Under the pieces are notes generated by a model, which saw only the letters and a list, made by a program, of their open reading frames with translations, had not been told where the DNA came from and searched no databases. From the NCBI GenBank assembly GCA_024398635.1, contig JAKSIV010000003.1, positions 62,001 through 126,000 of the forward strand: a stretch of DNA of 64,000 bases, written 5' to 3'. The translations under genes were made by a program, and so were the position numbers. Source of the stretch: Bacteroidaceae bacterium. Lineage in GTDB: Bacteria; Bacteroidota; Bacteroidia; Bacteroidales; Bacteroidaceae. Below, piece after piece: positions 21,102 to 52,786 of the stretch; position 1 is the first letter of the stretch; each line of letters opens with the position of its first letter.

Positions 21102-21153
21102 AAGCACATTTCTCTGTAAGCGAAGATAGTGCTTTTTGCGTCAACAACGTTGG

Positions 21154-21212
21154 AATGTTACGATAATGGTACGCAACATATTTCCGGGGCCGATGACACC
21201 GACCTACTTTTG
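21154..21212 (+). promoter_or_regulatory. DUF805 promoter and operator-like repeat
   Basis: TTTC (21181-21184) and TACTTTTG (21205-21212) are 20 nt apart, a good Bacteroidales promoter. Upstream lies ATGGTACGCAACAT (21166-21179), an imperfect version of the perfect 14-bp palindrome found at 59422-59435 before the second DUF805 copy. The whole upstream block is shared between the two loci. Confidence 0.6.
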
Positions 21213-21239
21213 CGTCAGAACCAATCAAACGCAAAAGTT

Positions 21240-22010
21240 ATGGAAACAAAAAAGATCACATTCGGTGAAGCCATCAATTCCGGCTTCAGAAACATTTTCA
21301 AGTTCACGGGTCGCGCATCAAGAACTGAATTCTGGTATTTTATACTGCTTTATACTTTAGTGTTCTATACGCTGGGAATAGTAGTATCCTTCCTTATCCC
21401 ATTTGTTATGCTGAAGGCAAAACACCCTATTACACCCCAAGCCTTTCTGATGATAGTAGGCTTTATTGCCTTTATACTGATAATACCATTGGTTAGCATA
21501 ACCGTACGCAGACTTCACGATTCAGAGCGTAAAGGAGCATGGTTGCTGGCATATCTGTTACCCATGATTATTGCCGTGGTTTCAATGATATACTCAATGT
21601 TTCACTTTAATGTAGAGACTAAGGAAACTGAAACTGTAACCTCTATCAACCCGGAAGAATACTATAACAGATATACTGATACAGACGGAGATACCATCAG
21701 GATATATCCCGACTATATGGAGCAGGTGCAAAGCGGAAAGAGATTTTTCTACTATAAGGCCAATGGTGATTCCATTGCAGTTGAACCAGGTGTATTCAGT
21801 CCAATAGCAAGGACAGCACAAACTCAACAAGTTGATCGCGAACAGAAACTAATGTACGGAACAGCCGGAATCATATCCTTCCTTGTGATCCTCTCCTTTG
21901 TAGGATTCATCATACTGATAATCTTCTGCGCCCTGCCAGGAACCGAAGGACCCAACAGATACGGCCCCGATCCCAACGTCATCACCCAACCCGCACAAGA
22001 AACCATTTGA
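21240..22010 (+). CDS. DUF805 membrane protein
   Basis: ATG at 21240 is chosen because family members begin just before FGEAI; a longer frame from 21129 would add promoter sequence. The 256-residue product has DUF805 features: FTGRASRTEFWYF near residue 25, RRLHDSERKGAW near residue 88 and a C-terminal ALPGTEGPNRYGPDP. Four membrane segments are visible, with an unusual ~75-residue polar insert (about 120-195) between the third and fourth. DUF805 proteins are small inner-membrane proteins of unknown role. A decayed paralogue is at 59496-60091. Confidence 0.87.
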   Translation: METKKITFGEAINSGFRNIFKFTGRASRTEFWYFILLYTLVFYTLGIVVSFLIPFVMLKAKHPITPQAFLMIVGFIAFILIIPLVSITVRRLHDSERKGAWLLAYLLPMIIAVVSMIYSMFHFNVETKETETVTSINPEEYYNRYTDTDGDTIRIYPDYMEQVQSGKRFFYYKANGDSIAVEPGVFSPIARTAQTQQVDREQKLMYGTAGIISFLVILSFVGFIILIIFCALPGTEGPNRYGPDPNVITQPAQETI

Positions 22011-22045: not shown

Positions 22046-22180
22046 GTTGCAGGAGCAGGACATAAGGTTGGGGGAGCATCGTGGAGAGGCGTGAGCGGAG
22101 GGCCTTGGAGGATCCCGTTAAGAACGCCGCTTGTTCGAGGAACGTTCGGCCCCGTAGGGGACGATGAGTGACGCAAAACG
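22046..22180 (+). repeat. dispersed structured intergenic repeat, copy A
   Basis: A GC-rich block in the 210-nt gap after the DUF805 gene. It aligns over ~130 nt with the minus strand at about 52072-52206; shared stretches include TTGCAGGAGC, AGGGCCTTGGAG, ATCCCGTTAA and GGCCCCGTAGGGGAC. The last contains a CCCCGTAGGGG hairpin. No protein is evident. Nature unknown: structured RNA or small non-autonomous element. Confidence 0.65.
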
Positions 22181-22240
22181 AAACGACCCCTTTGCGTCCT
22201 GGGATTACAAGTGATGGAATTCAGTCACGCATTGGGGTCT
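22171..22240. repeat. stop-codon palindrome copy g, rearranged
   Basis: Half-sites GACCCCTTTGCGTC (about 22185-22198) and GTCACGCATTGGGGTC (22224-22239) are present but in the reverse order to the other copies and separated by ~25 nt. Looks like a broken or rearranged member of the family at the stop of the zinc-ribbon gene. Confidence 0.5.
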
Positions 22241-22496
22241 TAAAGATGGTCATATAGTCATGTTGCTTACAGCAGTATTTGCAGATTTCATACTCATGAC
22301 CTTCACCATCAGTAAAGAGGTAGCCGCTTATATGTTTGTTGCCGCACTTATCACATACAAAGGCATACGATATACGTTTACCTTTTGGTCCTTTAGCCAA
22401 ACTGGTCATTTTCTTCTGGAAAGGTGTATCCTCCATCTGAGGTTTAACTATCCTTTGGAAGGAACCAGGTTGATGTATTTGCTTGGAACGTTTCAT
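22221..22496 (-). CDS. small zinc-ribbon hypothetical protein
   Basis: A 91-residue protein with two Cys-x2-Cys pairs (CDKC near residue 48 and CKYC near residue 72), forming a probable zinc ribbon, preceded by a basic N-terminus. No specific family recognised. It sits at the left edge of the defence operon but on the opposite strand, so it is probably not part of it. The final residues overlap a palindrome half-site. Confidence 0.65.
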   Translation of the reverse strand: MKRSKQIHQPGSFQRIVKPQMEDTPFQKKMTSLAKGPKGKRISYAFVCDKCGNKHISGYLFTDGEGHEYEICKYCCKQHDYMTIFKTPMRD

Positions 22497-50055: not shown

Positions 50056-51930
50056 TTATCGGTTCAGAAGTACCAGCAGAACGTTGATGTCGCTGGGCGA
50101 AACGCCCGGTATGCGGCTTGCCTCGGCCAATGTTTCGGGGTCATGTTTGATGAGTTTCTGGCGGCATTCCGTTGAGAGAGACTGCAAGGAATTGTAGTCA
50201 AAGCGTTCCTTGATGCGAATGTCCTCCAGGCGTTTCATCTTATCTGCAATAAGGCGCTCGCGGCTGATATATCCGCTGTATTTCATCAGGATCTCGGCGG
50301 CTTCTATGATTTCATCCTTACGGGCGGGTTCGGTTTTGTCGAGTTCGGCCTTAAGGGTCTTGATATGTTGCGAAAGATTTTCAAGTGTCAACTGCGGCCT
50401 TTCAATCAGATCGGCCAGCTTGCATCCCTCGCGTAGCGGAGTTGTGCCTAACTGCTCTAAGGCTTCGTTTATAAGTGCAGGTTTGACAGAGAATCCTTTT
50501 GCAAAATCAACTATGCGGTTTATCTCATTGCGTTTGGAGCACATCAGGTCATAGCGCTCTTTTGTGGCAAGGCCTATCTTGTATGCGCGCTCGGTCAGTC
50601 GCAAATCGGCATCATCCTGGCGCAGCAGTATGCGGTACTCGGCCCTGGATGTAAACATGCGGTAAGGCTCGTCAACACCTTTGGTTATGAGGTCATCAAC
50701 CAGGACTCCTATATATGCCTCGTCACGTGCAAGAGTGAACGCATCACCTCCGTGACAGGTTATATGCGCATTGATACCGGCCAGTATACCCTGTCCTCCG
50801 GCCTCCTCATATCCTGTTGTACCATTAACCTGTCCGGCCATAAAGAGTCCCGAAACGACCTTTGACTCCAGCGTATGTTTTAGTTGGGTGGGGTCGAAAT
50901 AGTCATATTCTATGGCATAGCCCGGACGGTAAATGACCAGGTCGCGGAATGCCGGTATCTCTTTGAGTGCGCGTATCTGGACATCCATGGGCATGGATGA
51001 CGAGAATCCGTTCAGATACATCTCGTTTGTATCTTCACCCTCGGGTTCCAGGAAAAGCTGATGCTGGTCGCGGTCGGGGAATGTGACAAGTTTGGTCTCA
51101 ATGCTTGGGCAGTAACGCGGTCCGATACTCTTGATCTGTCCGTTGAACAGCGGAGAATCGGCAAGACCGGACTTGAGAACTTCATGTACGCGCTCGTTGG
51201 TGTATGTTGTCCAGCAGCACATCTGTTTGAGATGGCGCTCTGAACCCATGAATGAGAAACGATGAAAATCATTCTCGCCGTCCTGACGCTCCATCTCCTC
51301 AAAGTGTACGCTGCGGCGGTCTATGCGGACGGGCGTTCCGGTTTTCATTCGGCCGGTACGGATGCCGTGTCTTGTAATGGATTCTGTCAGAAGGTATGAT
51401 GCAGGTTCCGATATACGTCCGCCGGGCATGGTCACGCGGCCTATATGCATCAGGCCATTCAGGAATGTTCCGGCGGTCAGGATGACACACTTACAACTGA
51501 ATTCGGCACCTTCAAGTGTCTTTAAACCAATAACTTGGCCGTCTTTTACCAGTAGTTCGGCAACGGTGTCCTGCCAGATGTTCAGGTTGGGTTGGTTTTC
51601 CAGGACATTACGCCATGCCCATATGAATTTGGCACGGTCGCACTGGGCACGTGGGCTCCACATGGCCGGGCCTTTGGAGCGGTTAAGTATCCGGAACTGT
51701 ATGGCTGTGCTGTCAGTGACTGATCCCATGTGGCCGCCAAGAGCATCTATCTCTCTGACAATCTGTCCTTTAGCTATGCCTCCAACGGCAGGATTGCAGC
51801 TCATTTGCGCAATCTTGTTCATGTCCATGGTTATCAGACAGGTCTTGGAACCCATCTGTGCAGCGGCAGCGGCAGCCTCGCAACCTGCATGGCCCGCACC
51901 GATAACAATCACATCATACTTGAAATCCAT
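50056..51930 (-). CDS. mnmG: tRNA uridine 5-carboxymethylaminomethyl modification enzyme MnmG
   Basis: A 624-residue FAD-dependent protein that, with MnmE, modifies U34 of several tRNAs. The FAD-binding motif VIGAGHAGCEAA is at residues 10-21; GNCPAVGG-like SCNPAVGGIAKG near 45 and the C-terminal helical MnmE-binding domain (SRIPGVSPSDINVLLVLL) are complete. First gene of the minus-strand unit ending in deoC. The 340-nt region upstream holds repeat copy B and the promoter of the divergent GNAT gene. Confidence 0.98.
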   Translation of the reverse strand: MDFKYDVIVIGAGHAGCEAAAAAAQMGSKTCLITMDMNKIAQMSCNPAVGGIAKGQIVREIDALGGHMGSVTDSTAIQFRILNRSKGPAMWSPRAQCDRAKFIWAWRNVLENQPNLNIWQDTVAELLVKDGQVIGLKTLEGAEFSCKCVILTAGTFLNGLMHIGRVTMPGGRISEPASYLLTESITRHGIRTGRMKTGTPVRIDRRSVHFEEMERQDGENDFHRFSFMGSERHLKQMCCWTTYTNERVHEVLKSGLADSPLFNGQIKSIGPRYCPSIETKLVTFPDRDQHQLFLEPEGEDTNEMYLNGFSSSMPMDVQIRALKEIPAFRDLVIYRPGYAIEYDYFDPTQLKHTLESKVVSGLFMAGQVNGTTGYEEAGGQGILAGINAHITCHGGDAFTLARDEAYIGVLVDDLITKGVDEPYRMFTSRAEYRILLRQDDADLRLTERAYKIGLATKERYDLMCSKRNEINRIVDFAKGFSVKPALINEALEQLGTTPLREGCKLADLIERPQLTLENLSQHIKTLKAELDKTEPARKDEIIEAAEILMKYSGYISRERLIADKMKRLEDIRIKERFDYNSLQSLSTECRQKLIKHDPETLAEASRIPGVSPSDINVLLVLLNR

Positions 51931-51999
51931 ACAAACTCCAAAGTTACTGCAAATTCTTGGAATGGAAGATAATAGGAGTGGTTCTCTTTATACGGGAAG

Positions 52000-52206
52000 T
52001 ACGCTGGGTGTCCGGCTTTGGGACACAACGTTCCGGGGCTACTCCGGACCTCTCCGGACCCTAAACGGCGAACGCCTCCCTTTTAGTCCCCTACGGGGCC
52101 TAACGGTTAAACGAAGCGCCGTTTTTAACGGGATTCTCCAAGGCCCTACGTTTAACGCCCCTGCACTGATGGTCCTTAAGCCGGATACTCAGCTCCTGCA
52201 ATCGGA
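52000..52206 (-). repeat. dispersed structured intergenic repeat, copy B
   Basis: On the minus strand, about 52206 down to 52072 aligns with copy A (22046-22180). Sequence beyond the alignment (about 52000-52072) is also highly structured: GGCGTTCGCC hairpin, GGTCCGGAG as a direct repeat, and GTCC/GGAC arms. It occupies most of the 340-nt gap between mnmG and the GNAT gene; no protein is evident. Confidence 0.65.
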
Positions 52207-52234
52207 AAGAGAACCCCTCCTATTATCTTCTTGG

Positions 52235-52270: not shown

Positions 52271-52786
52271 ATGGATACTGAGATAAAGCGCGCTGGCAAC
52301 ACAGACTTTAAAATCATCCATGAGATGGCAGAGGTGGTGTTTCGTGAGACGTATAAGACAATACTGTCAGCGGAGCAGATGGAATATATGATGGAATGGA
52401 TGTATTCCCTGCCCAATCTGGCAAAACAGGTTGCTCAAGGACACACGTATTATATTGCCTGGAACGGAGATGATGCTTTGGGATATGTTTCGGTCCGTAA
52501 AGACTCTATGGATCCTGATGGCACTGAGGTCTGGCATTTGGAGAAGATATACGTAATGCCGTCGGCGCAAGGTACAGGTCTGGGATATAAGCTCCTTGAA
52601 ACAGCCAAGCAGCATGTAAGAGACAACAAATCAACTGCAAAAGCAAGGATTGAACTCAACGTGAACCGCAATAATCCTGCGGTCGGATTCTACAAAAAAC
52701 TGGGCTTGACTATCCTGCGACAAGGTGATTTTCCTATCGGTAACGGCTACTACATGAATGATTACATCATGGGGTTAACGGTATAA
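52271..52786 (+). CDS. GNAT family N-acetyltransferase
   Basis: A 171-residue GNAT protein. LEKIYVMPSAQGTGLGYKLL (about 92-111) is the acetyl-CoA-binding motif A, and NRNNPAVGFYKKLGL the motif B end. The N-terminal helix region (VVFRETYKTILSAEQMEYMM) is typical for a Bacteroidales subgroup of unknown substrate. Transcribed alone; a strong terminator follows. Confidence 0.9.
   Translation: MDTEIKRAGNTDFKIIHEMAEVVFRETYKTILSAEQMEYMMEWMYSLPNLAKQVAQGHTYYIAWNGDDALGYVSVRKDSMDPDGTEVWHLEKIYVMPSAQGTGLGYKLLETAKQHVRDNKSTAKARIELNVNRNNPAVGFYKKLGLTILRQGDFPIGNGYYMNDYIMGLTV

Follow-up and report, generated by a model that had tools for sequence, protein, structure and literature searches.

A dispersed intergenic repeat of about 200 nt in Bacteroidaceae genomes: worn copies of a folded, non-coding mobile element

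Introduction

The ERIC repeats of enterobacteria and bcr1 of the Bacillus cereus group are dispersed, intergenic palindromic repeats of 100-250 nt that are non-coding and fold over their whole length. We know of no transposase for repeats of this type, and large structured dispersed repeats without a known enzyme are, to our knowledge, an old open problem. HEARO and OMEGA-type RNAs, structured single strands of 150-250 nt that are linked to mobile DNA and often carry no gene, form another class of similar size. Here we describe an element first noticed as two copies in a 64,000-nt stretch of a Bacteroidaceae genome (the whole of which we call the window). Like ERIC and bcr1, it has many dispersed, intergenic, non-coding copies, a whole-length fold and no transposase. 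The likeness we draw is one of kind rather than of sequence: unlike them, the element has a core with near-invariant loops set in variable arms, its core is inverted and exchanged, it is targeted by IS110-family insertion sequences, and its relatives span an order of Bacteroidota. With HEARO and OMEGA-type RNAs it shares size, structure and the link to mobile DNA, but it has no Rfam match and no linked nuclease gene was seen.

Two further groups of repeats come closer in host range. RAYT-associated REPs are also dispersed intergenic hairpins, occur in the same genomes (often adjacent to the element or nested with it) and are likewise IS110 targets, as described for IS621 (PMC11208160); here, however, they are about 30 nt long and flank RAYT genes, whereas the element is about 200 nt long, was not found flanking such genes and does not track them. 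BrickBuilt, a Porphyromonas gingivalis MITE built on tandem repeats with terminal inverted repeats resembling IS ends, and the other P. gingivalis MITEs are non-coding, dispersed Bacteroidales repeats with long predicted stem-loops (PMC4596501). We set BrickBuilt apart by its description rather than by sequence, since it has terminal inverted repeats and the element has no conserved ones. A TIR-type MITE was rejected more generally: the arms are complementary within a copy and differ widely between copies, and no autonomous parent with the same ends was found. Bacteroides and the other Bacteroidales taxa looked for go unmentioned in two papers on repeats of related types (PMC4666352, PMC2267715).

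Neither the window nor the loci of the genus copies and distant relatives gave an Rfam match above the gathering score, and permissive E-values gave only chance-level matches. The openly accessible literature, searched by sequence and by description, yielded no account of the element and no family name. By kind it resembles the ERIC and bcr1 repeats, and it belongs neither to the RAYT REPs nor to the TIR-type MITEs nor to any tested Rfam family. The suggestion in the initial annotation of an undescribed dispersed element or RNA is therefore supported, by further copies and covariation as well as by these searches.

Results

Two worn copies in the window

The initial annotation reported blocks shared between the plus strand at 22046-22180 and the minus strand at about 52206-52072, and these are present at both places: copies A (from 22047) and B (from 52201) are 75% identical over 116-118 nt (E ~1e-14 to 1e-15). 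The extents needed revision, as copy A stops at 22168 and copy B is longer than had been noted (Table 1). Beyond the end of copy A lies a distinct 29-nt hairpin, GACGCAAAACGAAACGACCCCTTTGCGTC. Copy A scores 54.6 bits with the covariance model (E = 1.5e-11). Copy B scores 204 bits and matches profile positions 2-205 (E = 7.8e-59), and its four A-C mismatches indicate, by pair count, above-average decay. With its outer arms, both of which are conserved at orthologous mnmG loci, copy B runs from 52230 to 51965 and folds end to end into one long imperfect hairpin (-112.8 kcal/mol, z = -4.7). Copy A by itself folds no better than shuffled sequence (z = -0.2) because its 3' half is absent. Neither copy has a coding sequence or transposase attached, as originally stated, and the 91-aa ORF adjoins the DUF805 gene in this genome only. 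Both sequences are worn relics of a non-coding mobile element of about 200 nt.

Table 1. Coordinates of the two copies and neighbouring features in the window
Feature	Position	Strand	Description
DUF805 membrane protein gene	21129..22010	+	Upstream of copy A; PF05656, E = 1e-25
Copy A	22047..22168	+	Truncated 5' part of element; profile match 2-131
REP hairpin	22170..22198	+	RAYT-type; separate repeat family, abutting copy A
91-aa ORF	22221..22496	-	Downstream of copy A; no Pfam match
mnmG (gidA)	50056..51930	-	Left of copy B, reads away from it; PF01134, E = 2e-158
Copy B 3' outer arm	51965..51989	-	AAAGAGAACCACTCCTATTATCTTC; pairs with 52230-52206
Copy B inner stem and core	52001..52201	-	Full length yet decayed
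Copy B 5' outer arm	52206..52230	-	GAAGATAATAGGAGGGGTTCTCTTT; pairs with 51989-51965 in the fold
GNAT acetyltransferase gene	52271..52786	+	Right of copy B, reads away from it; PF00583, E = 1e-15

Copies in the genome and the genus

The two copies are not alone: there are three more in the same genome, many in the genus and distant relatives in the order. Those in the genome (G000; 2.36 Mb, 70 contigs) are also worn: one, at C43:11454, is broken and lies where its contig ends, and the other two, at C67:87899 and C67:35150, are minis with internal deletions. Of 37 congeneric genomes searched at the DNA level, 23 gave matches, many with at least 10 and several with at least 20, so that copy number within the genus ranges from none to more than 20 per genome; the covariance model added weak matches in a few other congeneric genomes. 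In a named genome collection, at least 119 stretches contain the pattern GGATCCCGTTAAGAACGNCG, and the matches listed are all metagenome-assembled genomes (MAGs) titled Bacteroidales, Bacteroidaceae or Prevotellaceae, many from the rumen or ruminant fore-stomach. In rumen Bacteroidales, such a repeat will fragment genome assemblies and give rise to spurious ORF calls. The core pattern had zero matches in viral contigs and a distant-genus relative had none in phage and plasmid records, and we rejected carriage by phages or plasmids on these grounds.

For the 50 copies whose context could be read, 48 are intergenic, and the four possible arrangements relative to the neighbouring genes are represented by 15, 13, 12 and 8 copies, with no orientation preference. 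A search for a recurrent neighbour gene at 80 loci found small clusters only, mostly of orthologous housekeeping genes.

Fold, covariation and strand

An inner stem, usually joined by an outer one, closes the conserved core of about 150 nt at the centre of the unit. The internal loops of the core are nearly invariant (GGCGUUAAGCGgAG opposite GGAGUAGCC, and GUUAAGAACGGCG opposite CGCCGUUUAG; GTTAAGAAC and GAGTAGCC, for instance). The stem sequences are free to vary while complementarity is retained: pairs in the inner arms vary freely, yet both partners change together, and the outer arms differ from copy to copy. RNAalifold predicts 56 pairs from 61 distinct copies, and 39 of these show double compensatory changes (24.6 in shuffled alignments). 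Partners can pair in 96.4% of cells, as against 81.7% after shuffling and 37-49% when the partners are slid, and the real alignment has a covariation score of 0.417, compared with 0.149 for shuffled and 0.04-0.10 for slid versions. Some excess over the slid versions is expected, since the model structure was derived from the same sequences, but this does not explain the double changes. The early impression that differences around the hairpins were partly compensatory is thus upheld by the family alignment, in which covariation is very strong.

G-U cells far outnumber A-C cells (256 vs 23; 52 vs 7 at those core pairs that are most often Watson-Crick), so it is the folding of the strand read here that is retained. 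This bias fits RNA and single-stranded DNA alike and does not tell them apart.

Inversion at the mnmG locus

The gap between mnmG and the GNAT gene can be followed across the genus. It holds the element in ten genomes, and a core-less or mini form remains in G035, G004 and G036. The element is absent from G006 and G031, either ancestrally or through deletion, both of which are possible; in G031 (C27, L325), about 2.5 kb of other sequence separates the two genes where other species have the element. The genomes have the outer arms near mnmG in common, but the core is reversed in G025, G029 and G003. The closest pairs of copies at this locus, G000/G029 (88%) and G033/G003 (89%), lie in opposite orientations between shared arms. 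Mutually closest copies arranged in this way mean that the core was inverted in place, at least twice, for which the simplest route would be across the outer palindrome. We also considered whether the outer arms here could be inverted copies of the host flank; the comparison does not establish this, because G006 and G031 may lack the element through deletion. Copy B, lying between the promoter of mnmG and that of the GNAT gene, is best read as an old copy.

Filled and empty sites

Mobility was tested by searching the genus for the flanks joined without the element. At the first site, G003 has the element, and G028, G012, G024, G029, G002, G000 and G006 have none. G027 and G033 (L340 and L341) have there a different core, GGGAGGGGCCCGCTCCGAAGGAGTGGGAGGG, enclosed by a GGGGTATC palindrome of similar kind and with REPs further out, an arrangement of nested palindromic elements. 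At the second site, the element is found in G024, REP-type hairpins take its place in G006, G031, G000, G027 and G025, and G036 has neither. Filled and empty orthologous gaps at two loci imply that the element is mobile, and the internally deleted minis and decayed copies are what would be expected of mobile-element fossils. When filled and empty sites were compared for a target-site duplication, the intergenic flanks proved too diverged to fix the ends of the element.

We think that in this rumen Bacteroidales genus the repeat is probably a non-autonomous mobile element, itself non-coding, which moves between intergenic sites as a folded single strand and depends on an enzyme acting in trans. 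Its working form would be a single strand, either an RNA transcript or single-stranded DNA, folded as modelled, and the enzyme would recognise that strand through its loops. Insertion would occur without orientation preference, often into another palindrome or next to one, after which the inverted arms would allow the core to flip, vanish or be swapped. What counts against this reading is that neither a linked enzyme nor defined ends nor a target-site duplication could be shown, and that the outer arms vary between copies. Given the strong covariation, the many copies, the filled and empty sites and the wider relatives, its structure, movement and partner proteins are all directly testable.

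A different reason for the persistence of the copies would be that each gives rise to a structured RNA of use to the host, as in a regulatory or small-RNA family. The RNA-like covariation and near-invariant loops would suit such a family, as would retention beside mnmG in 10 species or more, a long persistence that could hint at host use. We nevertheless consider this explanation unlikely, because orientation to the neighbouring genes is unbiased, loss, inversion and decay are frequent, close relatives lack the element at the same gap, and copy number varies so widely within one genus. We regard it as rather improbable, too, that the repeat is a quasi-palindrome maintained at the DNA level, with template switching and gene conversion during replication keeping the arms complementary and no folded strand under selection. 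Such processes could account for the copy-specific arms, the in-place inversions, tandem arm copies and the internally deleted minis, but correction of this kind would treat both strands alike and restore Watson-Crick pairs, contrary to the G-U excess, and it would not be expected to leave near-invariant loops that recur in distant genera with unrelated stems.

Candidate enzymes

The hairpin type that abuts copy A occurs at more than 20 places in its own genome and flanks RAYT genes at L213 and on C8 of G000. In G000, this REP family (GTGACGCAAA..TTTGCGTCAC) is clustered on C2 and C8 (L012, L013), with a RAYT gene at C8:15619. RAYT genes are common in the genus and are bordered by their own short REP hairpins; the covariance model, applied at 20 Y1 loci, gave 3 weak matches only to the element. 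That the element is an outsize REP or BIME transposed by REP-associated Y1 transposases is very unlikely, even if RAYTs and REPs often lie adjacent to or around it and a single-stranded substrate would agree with the strand bias, because the short REPs that flank RAYT genes are of other sequence and the element does not flank them, because Y1_Tnp was not found in G007, G012, G014, G028 and G034 despite many copies (most of these are incomplete MAGs), and because it was found in G001, G015, G016, G018 and G019, where neither DNA nor model search listed the element.

A resident reverse transcriptase gained no support as the driver either: RVT_1, present in 7 of the 37 genomes, does not track copy number, and it was not found in element-rich G003, G007, G012, G025, G033 and G034 (incomplete MAGs among them). 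Most of the genus MAGs are incomplete, so that such absences are only suggestive; G007, with 20 matches, is 97% complete and yielded neither Y1_Tnp nor RVT_1. No moving enzyme for the non-autonomous element we favour was found among linked genes, Y1 transposases or reverse transcriptases. An autonomous version with an internal gene was also sought and rejected, as the long versions are IS110 insertions and no longer gene-bearing form was found. An IS200-type Y1 transposase ORF at C66:1793-2155 of G000 (L202) resembles the Pfam model much more closely than the RAYTs do and, among the 37 genomes, occurs in this one only.

IS110 insertions

Copies that appear to run into longer repeats contain insertions of two different IS110-family elements (PF01548 plus PF02371), seen at L183/L199 (G028:C2) and at L188 and L197 (G024, G036). 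These two unrelated elements use the ~200-nt repeat as a nearly exclusive insertion site: 16 of 17 places are at profile position 107 or 125-126, the exception being the G036 copy of the second IS. For the G028 insertion (L183; insert of about 1.58 kb), the uninterrupted target is seen in G027 (L056). IS621 is an IS110-family element already known to insert into REP palindromes (PMC11208160), and the present pair adds another natural case of a structured repeat as an IS110 landing site and offers good material for bridge-RNA target prediction. The end of copy A coincides exactly with the second IS110 position (125-126), and its final base is the type A insertion point in other copies, as judged from the junctions of the L086 and L183 insertions. 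A plausible guess is that copy A, beside its RAYT REP, was truncated by an IS110-linked rearrangement.

Distant relatives

The covariance model built from the genus copies also matches other genera of the family (E ~1e-4 to 1e-9 per genome, with strict filters and at most 6 candidates scored per genome), and relatives with the same loop motifs are found in further genera and in other families of the order. Those in distant genera retain the loops GCGTTAAGCGgAG, GCGTTAAGAA, TGTTTGAGCGNAGCGAGTT, TTTAG and GGAGTAGC on unrelated stems. The apical motif alone is found in about 29 of 393 genomes and 22 of 207 genera of the order, counts that are approximate because the motif is nearly mirror-symmetric and a reversed control also matches some. 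Tentatively, and with more doubt than conviction, we suggest an order-wide Bacteroidales class in which the transposing unit would be a large folded single strand with conserved loops that inserts at or near hairpin tips, in which families would nest within one another, and whose enzyme would belong neither to the Y1 transposases nor to the resident reverse transcriptases.

Many of the relatives in other genera finish with a T-rich hairpin, whereas copies in the element's own genus have none. At the ends of several relatives (L255, L257, L260, L263, L303 and L308), a single A-rich tract comes after two T-rich ones, so that two alternative hairpins or a triplex could form; the hairpin loop is often complementary to the sequence just upstream (CTTGAC/GTCAAG). 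At L261, L263 and L264, two distant relatives adjoin in inverted orientation. In one genome (G067:C2:300000-330000; L302, L303), distant relatives follow one another in the same orientation, one per 1-3 kb, with paralogous ATPases and toxin-antitoxin-like and Fic-like genes between them, an arrangement reminiscent of an integron (attC) cassette array, although we make no claim to that effect; this run could be an array-like island or a segmental duplication.
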